From Prevotella sp. (GTDB lineage: Bacteria; Bacteroidota; Bacteroidia; Bacteroidales; Bacteroidaceae), in contig JAFZCU010000170.1 in the NCBI GenBank assembly GCA_017556145.1, positions 1-37,772 of the forward strand: a DNA stretch of 37,772 nucleotides. The letters run 5' to 3'. Below, piece after piece: positions 16,466-31,632 of this stretch. Positions within the stretch are counted from its first letter, which is position 1. Every line of letters begins with the position of its first letter. The translations under genes and the position numbers were made by a program. Below the pieces are notes generated by a model, which worked only from the letters and a program-made list of their open reading frames with translations, had not been told where the DNA came from and did no database searches.

Positions 16466-17947
16466 ATGAAGAGTTTGAAAGACTATCGCAGGTCTTTATC
16501 GGCCCGTCTGAGTGTGTGGACGGTGCTCGTGGTGACCGCCATCTTTCTGGCGGCACTCACCATCATGTTCACGGAGTCGCGGGATCATGTGCGTACGGAC
16601 ACCTTGGGTGTAGCCCGTCAGACGCTCGACGGCACGGTGTTGCATATCGACAATACCCTGCGTGCTGTGGAGGTGGCTGCCAACAATATGCTGAGGGTCA
16701 TTGAAGACAATCTTGACAAGCCCGACAAGATGTTTGACTATAGTCGTCGGGTCTTGGAGGTCAATCCGGATATAGATGGCTGCAGTATCTCGTTCGAACC
16801 CTTCTATTACAAGGAGAAAGGCCAGTATTTCTCGGCCTATTCCTATAACAACGGCGACAGCATCCTGACCGAGAACGAGGGAGCTGACTCTTACCAGTAT
16901 CATGAGAAGGACTGGTATAAGAAACCCAAGGCGCTCAACCGTCCCTACTGGACAGAACCCTATCAGGAAGACGCCACCGAGGGCATCATCGTGCAGGACA
17001 TCTTCTCATCCTACAGCCAGCCCATCCACGACAAGAAGGGAAGGCTGGTAGGTGTCTTTTCCGTAGACATCAGCCTCGACTGGTTCTCCGACACCGTTTC
17101 TGCCACCAAGCCCTTCCCCAACTCCTTTACCATCCTGTTAGGCAAGGGCGGTACTTTCCTTGTGCCTACCGACAGCACCCGACACGCCAACGAGACCATT
17201 TTAACCGGTTCGCAGAACAATGCCGACCCTGCCCTCCAGAGCCTGCGTGAGGCGATGACAGCCGGCGAGAGCGGCTATCGTGAGATGACCTTCAATGGTG
17301 TGTTGTCGCATGTGTTCTTCAAACCTTTCAGGAACACAGGCTGGAGTGTGGCCATGGTCTGTCCTGAGAGCGATATCTACGCGGCTTTCCATCAGCTGAA
17401 ACGTACCGTGCAGCTGGTGACGGCCATCGGACTGCTGTTGCTGCTGCTGAGCACGTGGTATATCGTGTCACGCAGTGTCCGTCCGCTGCAGAGGTTAGTC
17501 GACTCCACCCACCTGATGACACAGCATAAGTTTACGGGCGAGATACCCGACAGTAAACGGGAAGACGAGATCGGCCAGCTGCAGCGCCGCTTCAAGGCCA
17601 TGCAGGAGTCGCTGGGCAAATATGTGACGAAGGTGCGCCAGCAGTCGGCCGTGCTTGAGGCGCGTCATGCTGAACTGCAACAGGCATACGACCATGCGAA
17701 GGAAGAGGCGCACGTCAGGAATGCGGTGCTCCACAAGATGACGAAAAACATGTTGGGCCCTGTGGCCGATATTACAACCGTCACCCGTACCCTCTGTGAG
17801 GAATATCAGAATATGACCTACGACTATATGGACGCCATGGTCGATAAGATCGACAATGATGCCCATCAGGTCGGTGAACTGTTGAACGAACTCCTGCGTG
17901 CTGCCGAGGAGGATACCCGTCACCCCCAAACCGACGAAGCCTCATGA
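16466..17947 (+). CDS. Cache-HAMP sensor with a histidine-less dimerisation domain (no ATPase domain)
   Basis: A 493-residue inner-membrane protein. TM1 lies at about residues 18-36, a dCache-type periplasmic ligand domain at about 40-310, TM2 (TAIGLLLLLLSTWYIVS) at about 315-332, HAMP at about 335-390, then a coiled coil and a DHp-like helix pair. Where kinases have the H-box, this protein reads KMTKNMLGP. Aligned with SHQIRTP in the next gene, the histidine position is lysine, and no N-, G1- or G2-box follows before the stop. It is therefore neither a kinase nor a phospho-acceptor. Its Cache domain is clearly paralogous to that of the next gene, which overlaps it by ATGA. A regulatory or heterodimer-forming partner of that kinase is the simplest reading. 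Confidence 0.82.
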   Translation: MKSLKDYRRSLSARLSVWTVLVVTAIFLAALTIMFTESRDHVRTDTLGVARQTLDGTVLHIDNTLRAVEVAANNMLRVIEDNLDKPDKMFDYSRRVLEVNPDIDGCSISFEPFYYKEKGQYFSAYSYNNGDSILTENEGADSYQYHEKDWYKKPKALNRPYWTEPYQEDATEGIIVQDIFSSYSQPIHDKKGRLVGVFSVDISLDWFSDTVSATKPFPNSFTILLGKGGTFLVPTDSTRHANETILTGSQNNADPALQSLREAMTAGESGYREMTFNGVLSHVFFKPFRNTGWSVAMVCPESDIYAAFHQLKRTVQLVTAIGLLLLLLSTWYIVSRSVRPLQRLVDSTHLMTQHKFTGEIPDSKREDEIGQLQRRFKAMQESLGKYVTKVRQQSAVLEARHAELQQAYDHAKEEAHVRNAVLHKMTKNMLGPVADITTVTRTLCEEYQNMTYDYMDAMVDKIDNDAHQVGELLNELLRAAEEDTRHPQTDEAS

Positions 17948-19767
17948 ACATCATTGCCAAACAGATACGCCGTTCGTTTGCGCTACGTCTCAGTCTGAGC
18001 ATCGTGGTGATTGCCACCATCGTCTTTGTGGTGGCTATCGGTGAACTGTTCTACCGTTCGCGTACTGCCACCAGAGAGGCTGCCGTTGCACAGGCTACGC
18101 AGGTTCTCAGCAATGTCACGCAGCGCATGACGGTTTTGCTCGGTGAGGTGGAGGTGGCCTCGCATAATACCGAGTGGCAGGTCCTTGAGAATCTCCAACC
18201 CGATGCCTTGCTGCAACTCTCGCGCAACATCGTAGAGCTGAACCCCATGCTCGACGGTTGCAGCATCGCCCTCATACCTTATTTCTTTAAGGACCAGGGC
18301 AGGTTCTTCTCCGCTTATTCATCGAGGGGCGACGAGGGCCGGATAGAGACAGAACAAGAAGGCAACGAGAGCTATTTCTATTTCGGCATGGACTGGTATA
18401 GCCTCCCCATGCTGCGTGGCAAGGCCCTTTGGATCGACCCCTTCTCCGACAGTAATGACATCACGGGCAACGACCGTGGACTGATCATCTCCTATTGCAA
18501 GCCTCTGGTGACAGCTGATGGTAATAGCATCGGTGTCATTTCGACCGACCTCCCGTTGCAGAAACTTATACAGGAACTGTCTGAGGAACGGCTCTATCCC
18601 GAAAGTTACTTTATCCTTTCCGACAGCCGTGGTAAACCCATTGCCTCTACCAAGGCGGATGCCGGGGAAAAGGAGGAACCTATCGATTACCGCCGCAACC
18701 TGGTGATCAGTAACCAGGTGCCGCATACCGACTGGACACTCACCATCGTCTGTCCCAAAAGCGATATCTTCAAGGGCTATTACCAGCTTATCTATATCGT
18801 TGTCACCATTGTCATCTTGGGACTGCTGTTGCTGTGGACTTTCTGCTATTTCGTGGTGAGGCGCAATGTCACCCGCCTGCAGTTGCTTGCCACCAAGACA
18901 CAGGATATGGCCAAGGGTCGCTTCGATACCCCCGTCTTGAAAACCCGTCGCAAGGATGATATCGGCCAGTTGCAGAACAGCTTCTCTGCCATGCAGGCCT
19001 CATTGTCCGACTATGTGGCTAACCTGGAGCGGATGAAGGCGGAGTCGAAGCAGCGCAACCAGGAGCTGATGGAGGCTAAGGGCTTGGCGGAGGCATCCGA
19101 CAAGCGTAAGTCTGCCTTTATCCAGGATATGTCGCACCAGATCCGCACCCCGCTGAATATCATCAATGGTTTTGCCCAGATCTTGCGTGAGAACCACCTT
19201 GAAATGAGCGAGGAGGAGCAGCTGCAGCTGTTGAGGGACATGCAGCGCAACAGCTATATCATCTCCACCATCATCGATAACTGGTCGATGACCTCTGCCC
19301 TCGACAAGGTGAAGGATCTTCCGCGCGAGGATATGGTCACCGCCAATACGCTCTGTCACGAGGCGGTGGGCAATGTGCTGTTTAGGCAGCGCGACGATGT
19401 GATGGTGCGCATCGAGACCGTAGAGCGCGACATCCATCTGACGACCGACAAGAAGAGTGTGCTGAAAATCCTGAGCGAACTGCTTCACAATGCCGATAAG
19501 TTCACCCAACAGGGTTCCATTACCATTGGCTGTCAGTTACTCAATAGCCGCTTCATGGCATTCTATGTTGCGGATACGGGCTGCGGCATCTCGCCCGACA
19601 ATCAGGAGCGTGTGTTCGAGCCGTTTATGAAGGTCGACGAGTTCATCGAGGGCTTAGGTCTTGGCTTGCCGCTCTGTCGCCGTCTGGCCAACCTCCTAAA
19701 AGGAGAAATCGTGCTCGACACGCAATATAGCGGCGGAGCACGATTCCTTCTGAAACTACCGATTTAG
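17944..19767 (+). CDS. Cache-HAMP sensor histidine kinase (orphan)
   Basis: A 607-residue membrane kinase: TM1 at about 18-36, dCache periplasmic domain to about 275, TM2 (IVVTIVILGLLLLWTFCYFV) at about 282-303, HAMP, HisKA with the phospho-acceptor in QDMSHQIRTPLNIINGF, and HATPase_c with N-box LLHNADKF, G1 DTGCGISPD and G2 GLGLGLPLCRRL. It has no receiver domain, and no response regulator gene is adjacent, so its target lies elsewhere. It is translationally coupled to the truncated paralogue upstream, and the two share the DGCSI...FSAYS Cache signature. The ligand is unknown. Confidence 0.9.
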   Translation: MNIIAKQIRRSFALRLSLSIVVIATIVFVVAIGELFYRSRTATREAAVAQATQVLSNVTQRMTVLLGEVEVASHNTEWQVLENLQPDALLQLSRNIVELNPMLDGCSIALIPYFFKDQGRFFSAYSSRGDEGRIETEQEGNESYFYFGMDWYSLPMLRGKALWIDPFSDSNDITGNDRGLIISYCKPLVTADGNSIGVISTDLPLQKLIQELSEERLYPESYFILSDSRGKPIASTKADAGEKEEPIDYRRNLVISNQVPHTDWTLTIVCPKSDIFKGYYQLIYIVVTIVILGLLLLWTFCYFVVRRNVTRLQLLATKTQDMAKGRFDTPVLKTRRKDDIGQLQNSFSAMQASLSDYVANLERMKAESKQRNQELMEAKGLAEASDKRKSAFIQDMSHQIRTPLNIINGFAQILRENHLEMSEEEQLQLLRDMQRNSYIISTIIDNWSMTSALDKVKDLPREDMVTANTLCHEAVGNVLFRQRDDVMVRIETVERDIHLTTDKKSVLKILSELLHNADKFTQQGSITIGCQLLNSRFMAFYVADTGCGISPDNQERVFEPFMKVDEFIEGLGLGLPLCRRLANLLKGEIVLDTQYSGGARFLLKLPI

Positions 19768-19803
19768 TCTGATTACTCTGATTACTCCGAGTATTCTGAA
19801 TTA
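19768..19803. repeat. Array of 9-nt units between kinase and M16 genes
   Basis: Four tandem nonamers (TCTGATTAC twice, then TCCGAGTAT and TCTGAATTA) fill the whole gap between the two converging genes. They include the M16 stop codon at 19801-19803. No hairpin terminator is present here. Confidence 0.75.
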
Positions 19804-22620
19804 CTTCTCGGGCATCATGACGATCGAGGCATGGTTGCCAGCGTTGATCATGTCGGCAATGAACTTCTGCACCTTCTGGTTGGTCACGGCCTTTACGGTC
19901 TCTGCGTAGTTCGTCTGCAGGTCCACACCCTCAGCCGTCCACTCAGTGAGCACATTCATCCAGTGACCGTTCTCGCGGTTGTTGTCCTCAGCCTGCTTCA
20001 GCAGAATCTCCTTCACCGTGTTCAGGTCGGTGTCGCTGATCTTCTGCGTCGATTCCGTGATATACTTCAGCATCAGGTCGCGGGCAATCTTCTGCTTGTC
20101 AGGATTGGTGGGAGCCGCAGCTGAGAGCATATAGACGGGCTTGTCGCCATTCAGGCTGATCGAGCCTCTTGCACCGACGTTGTAGGCAGCACTCTCCTCT
20201 TCACGGATGGTACGGTCGTAGATACGCGTCAGGATCTGCTTGGCAATATTCAGCAGAATTACATTCTCCTGAGTGTAAGGCAGCTTGTCGTTGAGCCAGA
20301 TCTCAGTGGTCTGGGCCTGAGGTGTCTCCATCTTACGGGTGAAGTTGCACACGGGGTTGCCCTTGAAGAAGGTGCGGATGTCCTTGGCCTTGACGGGCGT
20401 GCCCTGAGGCATTGAGGCGATATACTGCTCCAGCAGCTCACGCACCTGCTGCTCGTCGAAGTTGCCGATGATGGTATAGATGAACTGTCCGCCATTGCCA
20501 TACAGCTGCTTGATCATCTGCAGCGTACGTTCGTAGTCGAAGCGCTGGAGATCATCCACGCTGGGGGTGAGATACAGGAAATTGCCGCAGTTCTGAACAC
20601 TGTTCACAGAGTCGTTATAGGCCATCTCGTGGTTCAGGTCCTTGTTCTTCAAGGCCGTCTGCATCAGGTTGGCAAACGAGGCCATTGACTTTTCGTCTTT
20701 CTTCATGTTGGTCATCGTCAGGTAGAACAGCTGGAAGAGGGTCTCCAGGTCCTTCGGTGTCGACTGTCCGGAGATATACTGACGGTCCTCAGCCACTTTG
20801 ATGCTCACCGATGCCATCTTGCCGGCAAGGGCCTTGTCGAGTTCCGACTTCAGGAAGTTGCCCAGTCCGCTATAAGCAGGCACGATCGAGATCAGCTGCA
20901 GGTTCATGTCGTCGGCCTTGCCGAAGAGCGACATACCGCCCTTGGCCTCAGCCTGCATCATCACCTGGTCATCCTTGAAGTCGGTCTTCTTCAGAATCAC
21001 GCGGGCACCGTTCGAGAGTGTCAGTTCCTTATAGCCGAGGGTCTTGTTCTCCGTTTCCTTCACAATCTTTCCCTTGGCGGGCATCTGTGCAATCAGGGGT
21101 TCTTCCTTCACATTGTCCACCCAGGCGGTGAGTGTCTCCGTGCGCACGGCCTCGGTACCTTTCTTCATGGCATCGGTGGTGACGTAGGTCTTACCGTCCT
21201 TCTCCTGTTCCATATAGAAAGCCACAAGGTTCTTGTCGTCGGTGCTGATAATCTGTTGGGCATACTGATTCACCAGCTCCACGGGCAGCTGTCCTGCCAG
21301 AGCTGTCATCGTCTGGTAGAGAGTCTCAACCGAGGGGATTGGATCGCTCTCGAGGAAGTTCTCCACATATTCGTCGGCATAGGCCTCGTTCTTACGCTTG
21401 TCGCGGTTGGTATAGAGCTTCTCCAGACCGCTCAGGTAGTCGGCCTTCGCACGGGCATACTCCGTGGCGGTGAAACCGAAGTCGTGGGCACGCTTGGCTT
21501 CGCGGACGATGGCCTGCAGGGTTTCGATATCCTTGCCTTCCTTGGCCACGCCGATGAGCATCAGCGCATCCTTCGTACGGGCCAGCTGCATGAAGTTGCC
21601 ATCCTGCACTTGTGCCTGGATAAACGGACAGTCAGGCTGCTCGGTAATCTCCGAGAAGCGGCTGTTCAGCATGGCGCACACCATCGCGTTCAGGTATTCC
21701 TGCACCAGATAGGCAGCAGTCTTCTTCAGCTCATTGGGAACGGGGTCGCGCTTCATCGAGAGCATCAGGATGGGATACTGCTGCTCCTTGTCCTTCTCAG
21801 CCACGTAGATGGCCTTCTCATTGTCGGGCACAGGCTCGTCGATTACCTTCGGGGCATTCGGATCCACCTTGATGTCACCGAACATTTTCTTGATCAGCGC
21901 CTCGGTATAGTCCATGTTGATGTCGCCCACGATGATGATGGCCTGGTTGTCCGGACGGTACCATTTCTTATAATAAGCCACGAGCTCTTCGGGCTTGAAG
22001 TTGTCGATGATCTCCATCTTACCGATCGGCATGCGGAAACCATACTTCGATCCCTGGAACAGAGTGGGCAGGGCGCGCTCGATCATACGCTGGTTGGGAC
22101 TATTGCGCATGCGGTATTCATTATGAATCACGTCGCGCTCCTTCTCAATCTCTTGGGGCGTGACGGTGATGCCGCTCGACCAGTCGCGCAGCACCAGCAT
22201 ACACGAGTCGAGGGCACTCTGGCGCTCCGTACTCACGTCAGCGATGTAGTACACCGTACGGTCAATACTGGTGTAGGCATTCAGGCTGCGGCCATACTGC
22301 ACACCAATCGACTGCAGGTACTCGGTCATCGTACCGGTGGGGAAGTGCTCCGAACCGTTGAAGGCCATGTGCTCAAGGAAGTGGGCCAGACCCTGCTGCG
22401 AGTCATCCTCCTGGATGGAACCCACGCGCTGGGCAATGTAGAAGTTGGCCTTCTTCTCAGGGGTGTTGTTGTGACGCAGGTAGTAGGTCAGGCCATTGTC
22501 GAGTTTGCCGATACGTACACTGTCGTCTACGGGGATCTCGGGCATCTGCATCTGCTGCTGGGCCGATGCCAGTCCTGCTGAAATCAGGGCTACTGCCACA
22601 AAAAGTCTTCTCAGTTTCAT
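19801..22620 (-). CDS. M16 family zinc peptidase (secreted)
   Basis: A 939-residue two-lobed insulinase/pitrilysin-type metalloprotease. A signal peptide (MKLRRLFVAVALISAGLASA) directs it to the periplasm or envelope. The inverted zinc motif HFLEH is at His80-Glu83-His84, with a downstream Glu ligand in the EKERDVIHNEYRMR region. A second M16 half, lacking the zinc motif, follows after about residue 500, as expected. I use the ATG at 22620 because the longer frame from 22686 would begin upstream of the -7 box. Its promoter carries the shared GTTA-N7-GTTA element at 22693-22715, linking it to the neighbouring two-component system. Confidence 0.9.
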   Translation of the reverse strand: MKLRRLFVAVALISAGLASAQQQMQMPEIPVDDSVRIGKLDNGLTYYLRHNNTPEKKANFYIAQRVGSIQEDDSQQGLAHFLEHMAFNGSEHFPTGTMTEYLQSIGVQYGRSLNAYTSIDRTVYYIADVSTERQSALDSCMLVLRDWSSGITVTPQEIEKERDVIHNEYRMRNSPNQRMIERALPTLFQGSKYGFRMPIGKMEIIDNFKPEELVAYYKKWYRPDNQAIIIVGDINMDYTEALIKKMFGDIKVDPNAPKVIDEPVPDNEKAIYVAEKDKEQQYPILMLSMKRDPVPNELKKTAAYLVQEYLNAMVCAMLNSRFSEITEQPDCPFIQAQVQDGNFMQLARTKDALMLIGVAKEGKDIETLQAIVREAKRAHDFGFTATEYARAKADYLSGLEKLYTNRDKRKNEAYADEYVENFLESDPIPSVETLYQTMTALAGQLPVELVNQYAQQIISTDDKNLVAFYMEQEKDGKTYVTTDAMKKGTEAVRTETLTAWVDNVKEEPLIAQMPAKGKIVKETENKTLGYKELTLSNGARVILKKTDFKDDQVMMQAEAKGGMSLFGKADDMNLQLISIVPAYSGLGNFLKSELDKALAGKMASVSIKVAEDRQYISGQSTPKDLETLFQLFYLTMTNMKKDEKSMASFANLMQTALKNKDLNHEMAYNDSVNSVQNCGNFLYLTPSVDDLQRFDYERTLQMIKQLYGNGGQFIYTIIGNFDEQQVRELLEQYIASMPQGTPVKAKDIRTFFKGNPVCNFTRKMETPQAQTTEIWLNDKLPYTQENVILLNIAKQILTRIYDRTIREEESAAYNVGARGSISLNGDKPVYMLSAAAPTNPDKQKIARDLMLKYITESTQKISDTDLNTVKEILLKQAEDNNRENGHWMNVLTEWTAEGVDLQTNYAETVKAVTNQKVQKFIADMINAGNHASIVMMPEK

Positions 22621-22656: not shown

Positions 22657-22664
22657 CAAAGGTA
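22657..22664 (-). promoter_or_regulatory. -7 box of the M16 peptidase promoter
   Basis: TACCTTTG on the minus strand is a perfect -7 box. At the right distance (19-21 bp) there is no TTTG, which suggests dependence on an activator. The shared element starts 29 positions further upstream. Confidence 0.75.
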
Positions 22665-22692
22665 CGGACTTTTTTCCTAACAACATGAAAAA

Positions 22693-22715
22693 TGTATGTT
22701 ATCTTTATGTTAAAT
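22693..22715 (-). promoter_or_regulatory. Shared regulatory element, copy 1 (M16 promoter)
   Basis: The plus strand contains GTTATCTTTATGTTAAA, with GTTA half-sites at 22698-22701 and 22709-22712, 11 bp apart. It differs from copy 2 at one of 23 positions. It starts 29 positions from the end of the -7 box, as do the other two copies. Confidence 0.7.
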
Positions 22716-22718
22716 CCG

Positions 22719-22756
22719 AAAAAAGACCGCCCGGTTCATGGTAACAGGGACGGCCT
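22719..22756 (-). terminator. Intrinsic terminator after the DUF3836 gene
   Basis: Read on the minus strand, AGGCCGTCCC (22747-22756) pairs with GGGCGGTCT (22724-22732), with one bulged base and one G-U pair, followed by a run of six T. It ends the DUF3836 transcript and lies next to the regulatory element of the M16 promoter. Confidence 0.75.
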
Positions 22757-22792
22757 CAGGAAATATATGAGAGAGAGTTATTAAGGAATCAA

Positions 22793-23278
22793 TTACTTCA
22801 CGGCGAGCAGACGGCTGTCCAAGGGCTCCATCACCACCATGCTGCTGGTCAGGAACATGTTGTCCTGTGTCTCGTTCATCTTGTAGGTCTTCACCGTGGT
22901 CAGGTTGGGAGCCTGCGAACGGTAGAGTGTCACCTCGGCAGGCAGGTCGTACTGCTGCTGCTCGGCATTCCAGTAGCTCACCTCCACGTTGTAGCCGTTC
23001 TTATAATATTTATAGGTCAGACGGCTGCTCTTCTTCCACTGCTGAGTGGCCTCGTCCCAATTCAGTATTTCCTTGTCCTGCAGACGGCCCTGCTCGTCGT
23101 AGGCGTAGCAGTATTCCATCTTCTGCTCCATCTGCTTCTGGTCGTTCTGGGCATACACTTCGATCTTATTGACGACACCGTCCTCCATGTCACCGTTGTA
23201 CATATAGTTGGCGTCATTGCTGTTAATGGCGTTGAAGTACATTGTCAGTACTGTTGCTGCTGTGATGATTGATTCCAT
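22793..23278 (-). CDS. DUF3836 family protein
   Basis: A 161-residue protein with a short hydrophobic N-terminus (MESIITAATVLTMYFNAINS) that may be a weak signal peptide. Beta-rich repeats such as YDEQGRLQDKEILNWDEATQ and YKYYKNGYNVEVSYWNAEQQ recall YD-type or toast-rack secreted proteins. The pattern matches DUF3836, found mainly in Bacteroides and Prevotella, with no known function. It is monocistronic, with a terminator at 22719-22756 and a promoter at 23339-23346. It carries the shared GTTA element, so it probably belongs to the same regulon as the M16 peptidase and CPBP-like genes. Confidence 0.75.
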   Translation of the reverse strand: MESIITAATVLTMYFNAINSNDANYMYNGDMEDGVVNKIEVYAQNDQKQMEQKMEYCYAYDEQGRLQDKEILNWDEATQQWKKSSRLTYKYYKNGYNVEVSYWNAEQQQYDLPAEVTLYRSQAPNLTTVKTYKMNETQDNMFLTSSMVVMEPLDSRLLAVK

Positions 23279-23338
23279 AACTCTTATTTTTTAATTGTTC
23301 AACATTTAATTTCAATTCTTTTTGTCCTTTAGACGCTG

Positions 23339-23346
23339 CAAAGGTA
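23339..23346 (-). promoter_or_regulatory. -7 box of the DUF3836 promoter
   Basis: TACCTTTG on the minus strand. No TTTG lies at -33. The shared element begins 29 positions further upstream. Confidence 0.75.
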
Positions 23347-23374
23347 TGGAAAACTACAAAAACTTTAAGTTATT

Positions 23375-23397
23375 TGTATGTTATCTTTAGGTTAAAT
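23375..23397 (-). promoter_or_regulatory. Shared regulatory element, copy 2 (between DUF3836 and the kinase gene)
   Basis: The core is GTTATCTTTAGGTTAAA with GTTA half-sites at 23380-23383 and 23391-23394. It has the standard spacing to the DUF3836 -7 box. It also lies about 44 bp before the -7 box of the rprX-like kinase gene, so it could give autoregulation. Confidence 0.7.
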
Positions 23398-23440
23398 GTA
23401 TAAAACAGCCAAAAATCATGGCTTTCTCAGGGGTTTTTCT

Positions 23441-23448
23441 TATCTTTG
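23441..23448 (+). promoter_or_regulatory. -7 box of the rprX-like promoter
   Basis: TATCTTTG followed by CA, a perfect -7 box. The -33 region lacks TTTG. It shows that the ATG at 23396 is upstream of transcription and cannot be the start. Confidence 0.65.
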
Positions 23449-23464
23449 CACACGAAATCATAAG

Positions 23465-24778
23465 ATGATGCCCATGCATAAGAATAAATATAAATATGTG
23501 TCGATTGTGAGTGCGGTGATGGTATTGCTGCTATTGGGCATCTATATGTGGATGACCTACCGCTCGGCGTCGCGTGATATTGCCGAAAGGGCAGGCAACC
23601 AGCTGATGTGGGCGATGTTCTACGAGAGCTATACCCGTGCCGACCTCGTGACGAAGGACGATACGCTGAGTCTGCCGCAGTCGCGCGGCAACCTGTCGCT
23701 GGCCTCGTCGGTAGAGGGCATGAACGACGCGCTGAGCCAGAAATACCATTCGGAGTTGTCGCTCGACACGGTGGCGATGTATGTCGACTCCTTGCTGAGC
23801 GTGGCGAAGATCACCCGTGACGTGACCGTACAGGAGGTGGACCCCTCGACCGGTGAGGGGACCTACGAGGTGGTGAGGCAGAATAACGACAGGTGTTCGA
23901 GTTGGTCGCTGTTGACGAAGCCGGTGAGCATCCGTCGCGACCAGTCGAGGGCCATCCGGCTGGCTCTGAACAATCCCTATCCTGAACTGATCCGACGGCT
24001 CAGCCCGCTGTTCCTGATCAGCGCCATCATCCTGGGCTTCTTCGCCGTGATCATCGTCCAGCTGCTGCGCTTCATCACCGAGCAGGAGCAGATGGCGGAA
24101 CTCCGCAACGACTTCTCCTATGCGATGGTTCACGACATGAAGTCGCCGCTGTCGAGCATCATCATGGGGGCGCACTTCCTGCATAGCGGCAAGGTGGACG
24201 ACAAACCGCAGATCAAGGAGAAATACTACAGCATCATCGAGGACGAGGCGGAGCACCTGTTGGCTCTCGTCAACAAGTTGCTCACCATCTCGAAGCTCGA
24301 GAACAGGAAACTGATCCTGAACAAGCACGAGACGGAATTGGCACCGATCATCGACGACCTGGTGGAGAAGGCAAAGGCAAAGGCCACGAAGCCCATCAGG
24401 GTGACGACGAGTCTGGAGGTGGCTCAGGTAATGGCCGATGAGCAGTATCTGACGGAGGCCATCGCCAACCTGATCGACAATGCGGTAAAATACTCGAAGG
24501 ATGAGATCGAACTGTCGATTAAGACCTTCGATACCGACAAGTATGCGCTGCTGAAGGTGCGTGACAACGGCATCGGCATGACGAAGGAGGAGCAGCAGGT
24601 GATATTCGACAAGTTCGGGCGTGCTGCCATCCATGAGAAGAACCGTAAGGGTGGTGTCTCGGGCTTCGGCCTCGGACTGAACTACGTGGATCAGGTGATG
24701 CAGGCGCATGGCGGCAAGGTCACCGTCGCCAGCGAGAAAGATAAATTCGCTGAATTCACCCTATATATACCGAAATAG
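23465..24778 (+). CDS. rprX: RprX-like sensor histidine kinase
   Basis: A 437-residue inner-membrane kinase. TM1 (residues about 11-30), a periplasmic domain of about 140 residues, TM2 (LFLISAIILGFFAVIIVQLL), then HisKA with the phospho-acceptor His223 in YAMVHDMKSPLSSII and HATPase_c with N-box LIDNAVKYS, G1 RDNGIGM and G2 GFGLGLNYV. There is no HAMP, as in RprX. Starts at 23465, 23468 and 23474 are all possible. The response regulator gene follows 79 bp later. RprXY is conserved in Bacteroidales and linked to envelope or stress responses, so the naming rests on architecture and pairing. Confidence 0.82.
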   Translation: MMPMHKNKYKYVSIVSAVMVLLLLGIYMWMTYRSASRDIAERAGNQLMWAMFYESYTRADLVTKDDTLSLPQSRGNLSLASSVEGMNDALSQKYHSELSLDTVAMYVDSLLSVAKITRDVTVQEVDPSTGEGTYEVVRQNNDRCSSWSLLTKPVSIRRDQSRAIRLALNNPYPELIRRLSPLFLISAIILGFFAVIIVQLLRFITEQEQMAELRNDFSYAMVHDMKSPLSSIIMGAHFLHSGKVDDKPQIKEKYYSIIEDEAEHLLALVNKLLTISKLENRKLILNKHETELAPIIDDLVEKAKAKATKPIRVTTSLEVAQVMADEQYLTEAIANLIDNAVKYSKDEIELSIKTFDTDKYALLKVRDNGIGMTKEEQQVIFDKFGRAAIHEKNRKGGVSGFGLGLNYVDQVMQAHGGKVTVASEKDKFAEFTLYIPK

Positions 24779-24782
24779 AATC

Positions 24783-24836
24783 AACTAATGACACTGATTT
24801 CACTGATTATTAATTCGTTTAATTCGCGAAATTCGT
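24783..24836. repeat. Array of 9-nt units between rprX- and rprY-like genes
   Basis: Six tandem nonamers: AACTAATGA, CACTGATTT, CACTGATTA, TTAATTCGT, TTAATTCGC, GAAATTCGT. They fill most of the 79-bp gap inside an otherwise compact two-gene unit. Neighbouring units resemble each other and drift stepwise along the array. Confidence 0.85.
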
Positions 24837-24857
24837 AGTTATAATAAAAATAGAAGT

Positions 24858-25559
24858 ATGATTAAATTGCTTTTAGTGGAAGACGATGCGTCGCTGGCCT
24901 ATATCGAGAAGACGGGGCTGGAGGATATTATTGGTGGGTATGAGGTGACGACCGCCGCCAACGGTAAGGAAGGTGTGAAGGCTTGGGAGGAGACGCACCC
25001 CGACGTGATCATCTCCGACATCGACATGCCGGTGATGAACGGCTTTGAGATGGTGGAGCGCATCCGTGAAACCGACGGCGATGTGATCATCATCTTCACC
25101 TCGGCGCTGACGTCGCCCAACGATGTGAAGGCGGGCTATCGTCTCGGCATCAACAACTATGTGAAGAAGCCCTTCGTGCCTGAGGAGCTCGATGCGCATA
25201 TCCAGGCATTGATGAAGATGCGGGGTGGGGCGAAGACGCAGAAGGAGACGAGTCACTACAAGCTGGGCAAGTACACCCTCGATGCCAATCACGCCACGTT
25301 GCGCAACGATGAGACGAACGAATCACAGACCATCACCCAGCGCGAGGCGCAGATTCTGGCGATTCTCGCGGATAATAAGAATAATGTGGTGCGCCGTGAG
25401 GCCATCCTCAGCCGTTTCTGGAATACGGAGGATGACTATTTCGCCTCGCGCTCGCTCGATGTCTTCGTCAACAAGCTCCGCAAGCTCCTCGCCGATGAGC
25501 CTCGCATCAACCTCAAAACAGTCAGAGGAATTGGTCTGCAATTAATCGTAACGAAATGA
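24858..25559 (+). CDS. rprY: RprY-like OmpR-family response regulator
   Basis: A 233-residue DNA-binding response regulator. The receiver domain (residues about 2-118) has the acidic pocket EDD, the phospho-acceptor Asp54 in ISDIDMPVMNGF, and the conserved lysine in YVKKPF. The OmpR/PhoB-type winged helix (about 130-230) ends LDVFVNKLRKLLADEPRI then VRGIGLQL. Such regulators bind direct repeats spaced 10-11 bp, which matches the GTTA elements found in three promoters around this gene. Its stop directly abuts the stop of the converging CPBP-like gene. Confidence 0.85.
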   Translation: MIKLLLVEDDASLAYIEKTGLEDIIGGYEVTTAANGKEGVKAWEETHPDVIISDIDMPVMNGFEMVERIRETDGDVIIIFTSALTSPNDVKAGYRLGINNYVKKPFVPEELDAHIQALMKMRGGAKTQKETSHYKLGKYTLDANHATLRNDETNESQTITQREAQILAILADNKNNVVRREAILSRFWNTEDDYFASRSLDVFVNKLRKLLADEPRINLKTVRGIGLQLIVTK

Positions 25560-26351
25560 TTAGTCTATTGGTTTGAAGGGTTCCATCGTCTTGAGGGCGG
25601 AGTAGAAGCCGAGGACGATGAGGGGGATGGCAATAATGGCACACCAGCCAGGTATAGCCACGCCGATAAGGAAAACCAGGATGATCCAATAGAATATGTC
25701 GCCCATGATGATGGGGATGACGCTACGGGTGTATTCATAGACATAACCCTCGACCATACCCACCATCATGGCAGGAATGGCCAATGTTGGTTCGCTGAAA
25801 GACACTGTTAGCAGACACATGATGGCGGCGAAGACCGTAATGACTATCTGTGGACGGTGCTTCCACTCAAGAATCTCGCGCATCATGCCGCCGAAGATAA
25901 TCAGATCGACTGTGGCCTCAATGAAACCCATGCCCAGAATGCTGGGCAGGGGGTGCCTGCTGATCCATCCGAATGAATCGCGCATGGTCTCATCGAGACT
26001 CGTTAAAGGATCCGACATGGTGCAGTAGAGCAGGGCCAGCCCACCTAACGCCACCATCGTCCAAAAGATGACTGGCCAGCGCTTTTCCCTGGGGATGCGG
26101 CCCATCGTGTAGCTGGCCAAACGCATACGGAGGAAGACAATCTGCAGGATGGCACAGGCCACACAGAAAATGGCCATGCCCATGACGAAATAGAGGTCTG
26201 ATGGTTTCGAGGGGGCATAGTCGTTACCGTTGAGGCCGTCGATAAAGCCGACGAGGAAGGGTCCCATGAAGCCCAGAAAGGCCCCACTGACAAGCATCAC
26301 GGCAACGAGAATGCCAAGTGCCAACAACAGATATAATAATGCTTTTCTCAT
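25560..26351 (-). CDS. CPBP-like integral membrane protein lacking catalytic residues
   Basis: A 263-residue protein with about seven to eight hydrophobic segments. The C-terminal half looks like a diverged CPBP (CAAX-protease/bacteriocin-processing) domain. VDLIIFGGMMREIL sits where EExxxFRG is expected, and SVIPIIMGDIFYW sits where the SxxxSIxxH motif is expected. The key Glu pair, Arg and His are all replaced, so peptidase activity is unlikely if the alignment is right. I start at 26351 because the -7 box lies inside the longer frame from 26396. Its promoter carries copy 3 of the shared element, placing it in the presumed RprY-linked regulon. Confidence 0.6.
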   Translation of the reverse strand: MRKALLYLLLALGILVAVMLVSGAFLGFMGPFLVGFIDGLNGNDYAPSKPSDLYFVMGMAIFCVACAILQIVFLRMRLASYTMGRIPREKRWPVIFWTMVALGGLALLYCTMSDPLTSLDETMRDSFGWISRHPLPSILGMGFIEATVDLIIFGGMMREILEWKHRPQIVITVFAAIMCLLTVSFSEPTLAIPAMMVGMVEGYVYEYTRSVIPIIMGDIFYWIILVFLIGVAIPGWCAIIAIPLIVLGFYSALKTMEPFKPID

Positions 26352-26373
26352 CTGTTTCGTCTCTTTCTGGGTG

Positions 26374-26381
26374 CAAAGGTA
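26374..26381 (-). promoter_or_regulatory. -7 box of the CPBP-like gene promoter
   Basis: TACCTTTG on the minus strand, about 25 nt before the ATG at 26351. No TTTG stands 19-21 bp upstream. The shared element begins 29 positions away. Confidence 0.75.
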
Positions 26382-26409
26382 CGCATAATTCGCCAAAAGT
26401 GTCGCAAAA

Positions 26410-26432
26410 TGAATGTTATCTTTAGGTTAAAG
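26410..26432 (-). promoter_or_regulatory. Shared regulatory element, copy 3 (CPBP-like promoter)
   Basis: The core GTTATCTTTAGGTTAAA is identical to copy 2. Half-sites are at 26415-26418 and 26426-26429. It differs from copy 2 at two of 23 outer positions, with the same orientation and spacing to -7. Confidence 0.7.
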
Positions 26433-28656: not shown

Positions 28657-31632
28657 ATGAAGTTTCTCCGTCCAATCTCACTTCTCACTTTTCACTTCTC
28701 GCTTCTCTTTTCTGCAGCAGTTTCTGCGGCAGACTATAATATCGTGACGTATGGCGCCAAGTCAGACACCACCGTGCTGAGTACGACAGCCATCCAACGC
28801 GCCATCGACGACTGCTCGAAGGCGTGCGGCGGTAGGGTGGTGGTGCCTGCGGGCAACTATAAGACGGGTACCATCGTGCTGAAGAGCGATGTGCATCTCT
28901 ATCTCGAGAAAGGGGCGACGCTCTATGGCAGCACCGACCTGAACGAATACCGGCCTATGAAGTCGGACTTCGTGTCGCTGCGCACACAGGTTCCCACCAT
29001 CCAACTCATCTATGCCGACAAGGTGAAGAATGTGACAATCGATGGCGAGGGCACCATCGACGGACAAGGCTGGGCGTTTAAAAAGCTGACGTGGAACGAT
29101 GAGGGTATCACCCGGCCACATCTCATCCGTTTTATCCAAAGCGAGGAGATCACTGTGAAGGATATCACCCTGAAGAATTCGGGCTGCTGGATGCAGCATT
29201 ATCTGGCCTGTCTCCGTGTGAGGATCGAGAACCTCAAGATTTACAACCGCAATAACTACAACAACGACGGTCTCGATATTGACGGCTGCAGCGGGGTCAT
29301 CGTCAAGGGTCTGATGGTGGATTCCGATGATGATGGCATCACACTGAAAAGCACCTCGCCCAGATTCTGTGAAAACGTCCTTATTTCCGATTGCGTGGTA
29401 TCGAGCCATTGCAATGCTGTGAAGCTGGGTACAGAAACGAATGGCGGCTTCTTGAATATTCATATCAAAGGCATCGTGGTCAGACCCAGCAGCGACCAGT
29501 CGGGCCAGTTCTTCGGGGCGCCTTCGAAGATAGGCACGTCGGCCCTCTCGTTAGAGATTGTCGATGGCGGGCAGATGCTGAATGTACATGTCTCCGACTT
29601 TACCGTCGAGGGCACCGAGTCGCCCATCTTCATCCGCTTGGGCAATCGTGGGCGTGGCTATAAGCTGCGGGAAGCGGTGAAAGGCTTGAGCGGTACGGGC
29701 AATGACGATACCATTACTGAACTGATTCCCATCAACCATGTGGGGCGCATCAACGGCGTGCATGTGTCGCATTTCCGGGTCCGTAACGCTGGCTCTGTGG
29801 GGTGCTCAATCACGGGATTGCCCAGCTACCCTGTCGAGAATGTGTGGCTGTCGGATATCTCCATCCATCACAAGGGTGGGGTGAAGGCTGCTGACCTTGC
29901 CGCTATCAACGACACCATCAGGGATGAGAAGGAGAAGGCCTATCCTGAGGCGACAATGTGGGGCAACCTGCCTGCCAAAGGCTTTTTCGTCCGCCATGCC
30001 CGTAACGTGGTGTTCAACGACGTTCAGATACAAACGGAGCAGCCCGATGTGCGGCTTGACTTCGTTCAGGACGACTACGACCTTGAGCCTTCTTCTCTAT
30101 CCTTTTCCTGGGGCGACCTGGGCAATGGCTTCTACAAGAATCCTGTGCTGAATGCCGATTTCTCCGACCCCGATGTCATTCGCGTGGGTGCGAAATATTA
30201 TATGGTGGCGTCCGACTTCCACTTCTTAGGCATGCAGGTGTTGGAGTCGGAGGATATGGTCAACTGGCGCTATATCAGTCAGATCTACCGTCGCTTCGAT
30301 GAGCCGGGCTGGGACAGTAACCAACATTATGCTGGTGGTTCGTGGGCGCCTGCCATCCGTTATCATAACGGTCTCTACTATGTCTATTTCTGCACCCCCG
30401 ACGAGGGCCTCTATATGACGACGGCGAAAGATCCCCATGGCCCTTGGGCACCCTTGCATCTGGTGAAGCGCGTGCCGAAATGGGAAGACCCGTGTCCTTT
30501 TTGGGAAGACGATGGTGAGGACCAATCGTCCGACGGACAGGCCTATTTAGGGCGTAGCAAGCATGGCGCAGGGCCGATAATTGTACATAAGATGTCGCCC
30601 GATGGCAAAACCTTGCTCGATGATGGCGTGACAGTCTATGAAGGGCCGGTGGCAGAGGGCACGAAATTCCTGAAGCGCAATGGCTGGTATTATCTGATTA
30701 TTCCGGAAGGCGGTGTGGGGACTGGCTGGCAGACGGTGCTGCGTTCGAAAAACATCTATGGTCCCTACGAGCGCAAGATTGTGCTTGAGAAAGGCTCTAC
30801 CAACGTGAACGGCCCTCATCAGGGGGCACTGGTTGATACGCCTGATGGCCAGTGGTGGTTCTATCATTTCCAGGAGACGCCCGTACTGGGACGCGTGGTG
30901 CATCTACAGCCTGTCCGTTGGCAAGACGACTGGCCCCTGATGGGTGTCGATTATGATGGCAACGGTGTGGGTGAGCCCGTGGACGTTTGGCAAATGCCGG
31001 AGATAGAGGTGAAGGTAAGAGAGAAGCAAGAAGTAAGAGAATACCAATACGTCTCCTCAGACTTTCGTGATGATTTCAATGACATGAACATTTCTCTTAC
31101 CTCTCACCTCTCACCTCTTACCTCTTTAAATCCCGTCTGGCAATGGAATCACAACCCCGTCGATACCCACTGGAACCTCACCGATCGCAAAGGTTGGCTC
31201 ACATTGAAAGCCCTGCCTGCCGACAGTCTGAAGCTGGCGCGGAATATGCTGACGCAGAAGGTCATCGGCTATCAGAGTGAGAGCACCACATTGGTATCGG
31301 TATCAGGCAATAGCTATGGGGGGCTGTTTTGTTCTGGCAAGCTGTTTCGTGGCATCGGCCTCTGCAAGGATGGCATCTTTGTCGAGGCACATGGCCAGCG
31401 GGAGATTGTGAGTCGTGGGAAGTTTGATAAGGTGTGGCTGCGCATCGAAAACGATTGCAGAGAAAATCACCATCAGTTCTATTTCAGTACCGATGGCGAG
31501 CATTATGAGCCTGCAGGTGAGGAATTCCCTATGCGGGCAGGCTATTGGAAAGGCATCCGTGTAGGCTTATTCTGTTACGGCCCCAGCGGTGAGGCGGCTT
31601 TCGATTTCTTCGAGCAGCGCGTCGCCCCTTAA
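28657..31632 (+). CDS. GH28-GH43 fusion: polygalacturonase-like plus arabinosidase/xylosidase-like
   Basis: A 991-residue secreted two-enzyme protein. After a signal peptide (to about residue 24), a GH28 beta-helix (about 25-480) shows NNDGLDI (202-208) and DSDDDGI (222-228) with the catalytic Asp residues. The usual GHG is replaced by SSHCN. A GH43 propeller (about 493-780) has DFSDPDVIRVG, SWAPAIRYHNGLYYVYF, WEDPCPFW and PVAEGTKF. A C-terminal concanavalin-like domain begins near residue 825. The linker at about 783-824 is partly coded by 7-nt repeats on both sides, and so is part of the signal peptide. The protein should cut pectin backbone and side chains. Its last 66 bp overlap the opposing thioredoxin gene. 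Confidence 0.88.
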   Translation: MKFLRPISLLTFHFSLLFSAAVSAADYNIVTYGAKSDTTVLSTTAIQRAIDDCSKACGGRVVVPAGNYKTGTIVLKSDVHLYLEKGATLYGSTDLNEYRPMKSDFVSLRTQVPTIQLIYADKVKNVTIDGEGTIDGQGWAFKKLTWNDEGITRPHLIRFIQSEEITVKDITLKNSGCWMQHYLACLRVRIENLKIYNRNNYNNDGLDIDGCSGVIVKGLMVDSDDDGITLKSTSPRFCENVLISDCVVSSHCNAVKLGTETNGGFLNIHIKGIVVRPSSDQSGQFFGAPSKIGTSALSLEIVDGGQMLNVHVSDFTVEGTESPIFIRLGNRGRGYKLREAVKGLSGTGNDDTITELIPINHVGRINGVHVSHFRVRNAGSVGCSITGLPSYPVENVWLSDISIHHKGGVKAADLAAINDTIRDEKEKAYPEATMWGNLPAKGFFVRHARNVVFNDVQIQTEQPDVRLDFVQDDYDLEPSSLSFSWGDLGNGFYKNPVLNADFSDPDVIRVGAKYYMVASDFHFLGMQVLESEDMVNWRYISQIYRRFDEPGWDSNQHYAGGSWAPAIRYHNGLYYVYFCTPDEGLYMTTAKDPHGPWAPLHLVKRVPKWEDPCPFWEDDGEDQSSDGQAYLGRSKHGAGPIIVHKMSPDGKTLLDDGVTVYEGPVAEGTKFLKRNGWYYLIIPEGGVGTGWQTVLRSKNIYGPYERKIVLEKGSTNVNGPHQGALVDTPDGQWWFYHFQETPVLGRVVHLQPVRWQDDWPLMGVDYDGNGVGEPVDVWQMPEIEVKVREKQEVREYQYVSSDFRDDFNDMNISLTSHLSPLTSLNPVWQWNHNPVDTHWNLTDRKGWLTLKALPADSLKLARNMLTQKVIGYQSESTTLVSVSGNSYGGLFCSGKLFRGIGLCKDGIFVEAHGQREIVSRGKFDKVWLRIENDCRENHHQFYFSTDGEHYEPAGEEFPMRAGYWKGIRVGLFCYGPSGEAAFDFFEQRVAP
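28676..28710 (+). repeat. Array of 7-nt units TCTCACT coding the signal peptide core
   Basis: Five tandem heptamers (TCTCACT twice, TTTCACT, TCTCGCT, TCTCTTT) encode the hydrophobic centre of the GH28-GH43 signal peptide, around SLLTFHFSLLFS. Confidence 0.85.
31006..31041 (+). repeat. Purine-rich 7-nt-type repeat in the GH28-GH43 linker (left)
   Basis: An imperfect array of units like GGTAAGA and AAGTAAGA. It is the approximate reverse complement of the array at 31091-31127, so the two form an inverted pair around about 50 bp of coding sequence. Confidence 0.65.
31091..31127 (+). repeat. Array of 7-nt units CTCT(T/C)AC in the GH28-GH43 linker (right)
   Basis: Units CTCTTAC, CTCTCAC, CTCTCAC, CTCTTAC and a partial copy encode the linker peptide ISLTSHLSPLTSLN just before the C-terminal domain. 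Confidence 0.9.

Follow-up and report, generated by a model that had tools for sequence, protein, structure and literature searches.

PhoP of Mycobacterium tuberculosis (Mtb) is described in parts of PMC4832192 as recognising 7-bp motifs separated by a 4-bp spacer, on which it forms a tandem dimer, and also a trimer and a tetramer. For PhoP of Riemerella anatipestifer, DNA affinity purification sequencing (DAP-seq) yielded a motif whose most conserved letters are TTTAACA, with 583 peaks genome-wide, as given in the portion of PMC9603813 that presents it. The CpxRA system of Vibrio cholerae, like those of Escherichia coli and Salmonella enterica, has a small gene divergent from the kinase–regulator pair, according to passages of PMC6737893. 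The locus considered here lies on a 37,772-nucleotide contig of a Prevotella sp. (JAFZCU010000170.1, assembly GCA_017556145.1), the whole of which is referred to as the window. A sensor kinase gene and an OmpR/PhoB-type response regulator gene on the plus strand are flanked by three minus-strand genes, which encode an M16 peptidase, a DUF3836 protein and a CPBP-like membrane protein. Each of the three is preceded by a near-identical 23-bp element.

This element is very probably the tandem site of the neighbouring regulator, occurring in two classes of TAAC geometry and probably serving to activate sigma-ABfr promoters of envelope genes. Five kinds of observation underlie this reading: the site, its spacing, its repeat structure, its conservation before the same targets and its co-occurrence with the regulator.

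The element and its promoter geometry

An earlier note on this DNA had placed copies of the element at 22693-22715, 23375-23397 and 26410-26432. Copies 1 and 3 indeed agree with copy 2 at 22 and 21 of 23 positions, and domain searches gave the same three gene assignments. The features concerned are as follows.

22698-22714, minus strand: M16 peptidase promoter, regulator-site element TTTAACATAAAGATAAC (transcribed strand), two TAAC half-sites with an 11-bp period
22657-22664, minus strand: -7 box TACCTTTG of the M16 peptidase gene, with the element 33 nt upstream
19801-22620, minus strand: M16 peptidase, 939 aa (PF00675, PF05193)
23380-23396, minus strand: DUF3836 promoter, regulator-site element TTTAACCTAAAGATAAC
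23369-23372, minus strand: DUF3836 promoter, third TAAC half-site, 11 bp further on and 22 nt before the -7 box
23339-23346, minus strand: -7 box TACCTTTG of the DUF3836 gene
22793-23278, minus strand: DUF3836 protein, 161 aa (PF12930), with a beta-rich structure model
26415-26431, minus strand: promoter of the CPBP-like gene, regulator-site element TTTAACCTAAAGATAAC
26374-26381, minus strand: -7 box TACCTTTG of the CPBP-like gene, with TTTG at positions 6-9 of the 33-nt gap
25560-26351, minus strand: CPBP/Rce1-like membrane protein, 263 aa (Pfam 22.5 bits, cut-off 22.4)
23465-24778, plus strand: sensor histidine kinase, 437 aa (HisKA, HATPase_c)
23441-23448, plus strand: -7-like box TATCTTTG of the kinase gene
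24858-25559, plus strand: OmpR/PhoB-type response regulator, 233 aa (Response_reg, PF00072, the receiver, and Trans_reg_C, PF00486, the winged-helix effector, both above cut-offs)

The 17-mer core has three exact matches in the window. Dinucleotide shuffles give an expectation of 0.06 core matches at up to three mismatches, and three matches were reached in none of 100 shuffles. In all three promoters, TTTAACnTAAAGATAAC precedes TACCTTTG by exactly 33 nt. Read the other way, the end of CAAAGGTA, the reverse complement of TACCTTTG, is exactly 34 nt ahead of the G of GTTATC in all three, a figure equivalent to the 33-nt gap on the transcribed strand. The two strands of the window, 75,544 positions in all, contain TAnnTTTG 21 times, so a gap common to three promoters is not due to chance; the earlier note had called the constant phasing hard to explain in that way. 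The -7 box of sigma-ABfr promoters is given in PMC7366714, in the part dealing with it, as having the consensus TAnnTTTG, and a box of this type is present in all three promoters.

The earlier note had described GTTA half-sites 11 bp apart. The period holds, and the core is better read as TAAC repeats: TAAC-N7-TAAC is found in all three window promoters, and a third repeat in the DUF3836 promoter. The further statement that no TTTG -33 box is present seems to fail for the CPBP-like promoter, with its TTTG at gap positions 6-9; these positions hold TTTT in the M16 promoter and are overlapped by the third TAAC in the DUF3836 promoter. The TTTG of the CPBP-like promoter appears to sit roughly where a -33 box belongs. 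With a -7 box centred at -7, as parts of PMC7366714 place it, the third repeat or TTTG would fall at about -33 to -37.

The same arrangement recurs in relatives. In a survey of 398 genomes of the genus, the recurrent targets are DUF3836 genes (30 promoters in 30 genomes), CPBP-class genes (24 in 23) and M16 genes (11 in 11), the classes being assigned by protein start and length, with one paralogue omitted from the CPBP class and short frames included in it. The third half-site, which was part of no pattern used for finding sites, reads ATAAC in 29 of the 30 DUF3836 promoters and GTAAC in the remaining one. At the corresponding position, 8 of 11 M16 promoters have TTTGC; CPBP-class promoters are mixed there (TTTG in 8 of 24).

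A search for the element irrespective of spacing, in 14 regulator-positive genomes, returned 31 places, with TAnnTTTG at a gap of 33 in 22 cases, 32 in one and 44 in one. The same search returned 12 places in regulator-negative genomes, and among the 11 of these that were examined (G053:C53 was left out) one, in G135, has the box at gap 33. A fuller set comprises 85 of the 95 sites with at most one mismatch, from the genus loci of the regulator-positive genomes and of G135. Here the gap is 33 in 73 cases, 32 in three and 44 in two, the latter being register duplicates of a longer repeat in G027; seven have none. Most of this set was found by the gap-33 pattern itself, and the unbiased count of spacing is that of the 31 places alone.

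On the kinase strand, a conserved phasing was sought and rejected: at sites with a kinase-like divergent frame, the distances from the element to a -7-like box are 45, 28, 28, 27, 16, 56, 41, 35, 35, 29 and 28; on the target strand, the distance hardly departs from 33. The fixed phasing is thus a feature of the target side.

Three near-identical copies within 4 kb could also suggest a small repeat that has been copied locally, or a piece of transcribed leader, rather than a protein site. This is barely credible. Among gap-33 sites, mean pairwise identity is 0.96-0.98 in the element, a value inflated by the use of the element to find the sites, and drops to 0.31-0.38 in the 29 nt upstream of it at orthologous promoters; other genera, too, have 11-bp repeats at this gap, in front of different genes. 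As for a leader, the expected transcript would not include the element, which stands upstream of the -7 box.

Distribution of the element and of the regulator

The window's own genome (3.46 Mb, 82.7% complete) contains 23 places that match the core with up to three mismatches: the three window sites at zero, none at one or two, and 20 at three. A whole-genome scan of this kind, proposed in the earlier note as a check for random scatter, therefore returned no copy outside the window at up to two mismatches. The 20 three-mismatch places do not exceed the 30 that the reversed control pattern gives at the same threshold.

The regulator (E up to 1e-50) was found in 39 of the 398 genus genomes, and the element with the 33-nt gap and -7 box, at up to two mismatches, in 41. 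Such sites are present in 34 of the 39 regulator-positive and 7 of the 359 regulator-negative genomes; exact sites are present in 32 of 39 and 1 of 359, respectively (Fisher p about 3e-39, a descriptive value that ignores the kinship of the genomes). In the sole regulator-negative genome with an exact site, G135, the kinase gene lies beside the site at a contig end. The reversed control pattern with gap and box was found in none of the 398 genus genomes, nor in any of 349 genomes of the family outside it. With any spacing and at most one mismatch, the element occurs in 14 of 14 regulator-positive and 11 of 136 other genomes within a set of 150. The DUF3836, M16 and CPBP-like orthologues of relatives carry the element upstream, as expected from the earlier note. 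When the 39 regulator-positive genus genomes were searched for a relaxed triple repeat, 42 places emerged (reversed control: 1), 41 of which were already in the gap-33 set; the extra one, G352:C21, looks like a chance match. Together with the scan of the window's own genome, this search excludes an element scattered through the genome.

In the family, the gap-33 site with at most one mismatch is found in 22 of 349 genomes. It is present in every genome with a best regulator of 65% identity or more (21 of 21) and in none of the nine in which this identity is at most 62%; genomes counted as lacking the regulator have none at E up to 1e-80. Of 80 named loci, 63 belong to records of Prevotella, Prevotellaceae or Xylanibacter, many of them ruminant-derived according to the record titles. 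The other 17 (66-71% identity) are from Bacteroides, Phocaeicola, Parabacteroides, Mediterranea and other Bacteroidaceae, and 12 of these 17 carry the element with gap 33 at up to two mismatches. The co-occurrence of site and regulator across the 398 and 349 genomes supports the proposal of the earlier note that the element is the site of the neighbouring OmpR-class regulator.

Binding by another regulator, either the true RprY or a global factor, with the neighbouring pair as bystander or target, is improbable. The window's own genome does encode a separate RprY (contig C212) and a third OmpR-type regulator (C17), and RprY shares a lysine at recognition-helix position 206. However, the element tracks the presence of the window regulator over both genome sets, and a global factor would be expected to have many sites, not one chance-like place in addition to 41 known ones.

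That regulators at or below 62% identity lack the site altogether proved too strong a statement, since they lack the TAAAGA letters and most of them retain the triple TAAC geometry. The arrangement TAAC-11-TAAC-11-TAAC-22-TAnnTTTG, with at most one mismatch, stands beside the regulator in 7 of the 9 genomes, and the spacer letters are TAACAT-like, without TAAAGA. A search for this geometry found four further places elsewhere, and was positive in none of five control genomes; the reversed control gave one. In 6 of the 7 genomes, the gene behind the site starts, by eye, like an outer-membrane receptor; one of the six receptor-like genes was scanned and holds CarboxypepD_reg domains.

The regulators themselves also differ. 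Residue 223 is arginine in all 22 motif-positive rows of the alignment and lysine in 8 of the 9 motif-negative ones; residue 206, in the helix, is lysine (20) or asparagine (2) in the motif-positive rows and arginine in 8 of the 9 others. The counterpart of Arg223 in Mtb PhoP is position 237, where Arg237, in the wing, inserts into the DNA minor groove as described in parts of PMC4832192. The residue 223 difference fits the change in spacer letters, as a correlation seen in few lineages. Regulators with Lys223 adjoin sites such as TAACgTAACaTTAAC; G621, in which Arg223 is kept, has TAACGTAAAACTAAC. In the regulator tree, motif presence needs three changes, which rules out one clean clade of motif-positive regulators. 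A supported clade (99/97) contains all 22 motif-positive rows, four genus rows and the motif-negative G621; the tree labels are coarse, as two of the four genus rows, G080 and G027, do carry sites.

Targets and proposed mechanism

Besides the three recurrent classes, relatives have six sites before genes for a Band_7/SPFH protein and four before genes for a 97-aa membrane protein, as well as sites before single others. The 97-aa protein (loci L148, L151, L170 and L182 in G337, G334, G275 and G204) matches no Pfam family and is membrane-like by eye; the three-repeat site before its gene is conserved and lies well away from the regulator, and it is present even in G204, in which no regulator was detected. 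In G013, the M16 gene closely follows the DUF3836 gene, and in the Bacteroides locus L260 a site-bearing DUF3836 gene is followed by an M16 gene. M16 relatives (E up to 1e-200) occur in 127 genomes of the 150-genome genus set, the majority of the 127 having neither regulator nor site. Among genomes without the regulator, G009 and G025 hold the two closest relatives (68% and 80% identity, respectively), and no element occurs within 1,500 nt upstream of either; both genes follow another coding sequence, and the promoter in G025 may lie further off.

The earlier note spoke of a local regulon, which holds in the window and fails as a strict rule in relatives. Among 76 sites in regulator-positive genus genomes, 62 are within 20 kb of the regulator and 5 lie further along its contig; the other 9 are on different contigs, in some cases at an assembly break. 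In the family outside the genus, the corresponding figures for 54 sites (G424 left out) are 39, 1 and 14. The regulon is compact, and mostly but not always local.

From these sequences, we infer regulator binding, activation by binding and a physiological role as follows. The kinase would phosphorylate the regulator upon an envelope signal, as presumed from its family, the signal being sensed, to judge from the structure model, by the part between two apparent membrane helices. By analogy with PhoP, two or three regulator subunits would then bind head to tail to the TAAC core, repeated every 11 bp. Class A promoters (DUF3836 and, in relatives, several others) have three repeats, of which the third is 22 nt from the -7 box, at the place expected for a -33 box. 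Class B promoters (M16, CPBP) have two repeats at the same distance, with TTTG replacing the third in some relatives. As the geometry suggests, the sigma-ABfr polymerase at TAnnTTTG would be helped by the subunit near -33 or by the pair immediately above. The output would be a small set of envelope genes, for the most part neighbours of the regulator gene.

Several observations weigh against this mechanism. The co-occurrence of site and regulator is inflated by shared ancestry and by their linkage. The gap-33 site at up to two mismatches is absent from five regulator-positive genomes. One of these, G198, has a site with gap 32; in G152 the regulator gene begins 1.1 kb from the contig start, and in G343 the contig ends inside it, with no site in the sequence examined at either place. 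In the remaining two, G042 and G045, elements are present without the standard promoter. Conversely, matches with one or two mismatches occur in G150, G155, G204, G211, G292 and G317, where no regulator was detected, and an exact site occurs in G424 (56% complete), one of 319 family genomes without the regulator. Seven of the 31 places found irrespective of spacing in regulator-positive genomes have no -7 box nearby, and 14 of the 76 genus sites and 15 of the 54 family sites lie over 20 kb from the regulator or on a different contig.

The main rival holds that the regulator binds the element and represses, or acts as a dual regulator; this is unlikely, and still the most serious alternative. 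A third half-site at about -33 could occlude the polymerase. In addition, the element lies reversed and upstream of the regulator gene in G042 (L081, 9067-9082) and G045 (L082, 10181-10196), without a -7 box at 33; in G042 it is downstream of TATCTTTG on the regulator strand, an arrangement that would suit autorepression. The sites are nevertheless upstream of the -7 box and not over it, with the gap of 33 in 73 of the 85 elements of the fuller genus set, and three-repeat promoters lack the -33 TTTG at that place, as would follow if the regulator took its role. Activation is the preferred reading.

The kinase has an apparent N-terminal membrane helix, a helix and beta region at about 79-178, an apparent second membrane helix, HisKA and HATPase_c, the membrane helices being judged from sequence and structure model with no dedicated predictor. 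Its true start may be an ATG nine bases downstream, where most relatives begin. A fold search matched kinase cores and yielded no sensor identity. The kinase of G086 (L080, 5151-6080) reads as 309 aa, with most of the inter-helix region missing. The best structure matches of the DUF3836 model are BF3112 and two DUF3836 proteins. In the CPBP-like protein (25560-26351), EExxxR, which we take to be the motif expected in such a protein, is seemingly absent by eye; site-bearing paralogues in G090 and G266 read SEEIGFR. The window protein may be a non-catalytic relative.

Open-licence PubMed Central literature returned no regulon, site or target set for the pair, and no paper on DUF3836 under the family name or its structure loci. 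If the mechanism is true, it provides a binding code of fixed promoter geometry, directly readable in the genomes of Prevotella, Phocaeicola and Bacteroides, and DUF3836, a family with solved structures, gains a testable regulatory context.

Elsewhere in the window, two adjacent genes at 16466-19767 encode dCache/PDC and HAMP domains, one with and one without kinase domains; no regulator gene was seen directly beside them. At 28657-31632, GH28 and GH43 domains are joined in a single 991-aa protein.

Comparison with known systems

RprXY of Bacteroidales resembles the window pair in that an OmpR/PhoB-type regulator adjoins a kinase gene, and RprY (NF051850) is the best-scoring NCBIfam model for the window regulator. 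The scores of 182.4 and 182.9 bits are far under the curated cut-off of 370, and the separate RprY of the same genome, on another contig, reaches 441 bits. The "RprXY-like" of the earlier note is therefore apt as a pointer to the nearest named model, and membership of the pair in RprXY is rejected. A keyword search of two papers on Porphyromonas gingivalis RprY gave no mention of a motif, consensus or binding site.

In gene order, the locus is similar to cpxP|cpxRA, and Cpx targets include envelope proteolysis, according to passages of PMC6737893. A DUF3836 gene with a site is divergent from the pair in the window and in several relatives; in others, further genes intervene. The window regulator differs from CpxR (NF008199), scoring 76.3 bits against a cut-off of 341, and the DUF3836 model is beta-rich. 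By eye, a signal peptide of DUF3836 seems plausible in some relatives, and that of the window protein looks weak. It is conceivable, though rather doubtful, that the pair forms a Cpx-like envelope-stress system of separate origin, with DUF3836 as a CpxP-like exported feedback protein, a regulon for membrane-protein quality control (M16, CPBP/Rce1-like, Band_7, YbjQ) and co-evolution of regulator and site. In such co-evolution, the TAAC core and 22-nt phasing would be kept across genera while the spacer letters change with residues 223 and 206.

The motif of R. anatipestifer PhoP, TTTAACA, is the nearest published one found and matches the window half-site. The peaks of that regulator are spread out over its genome, in contrast to three sites in the window's own genome, and the section of PMC9603813 on the motif does not mention a fixed distance to a -7 box. 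Mtb PhoP differs in half-site letters and phylum. Its 11-bp direct repeat, as described in parts of PMC4832192, has the same period as the window element, and for this reason 11-bp tandem repeats suit the OmpR/PhoB family. The mechanism would be that of the OmpR/PhoB class, to which the candidate sites fit by their head-to-tail 11-bp repeats.

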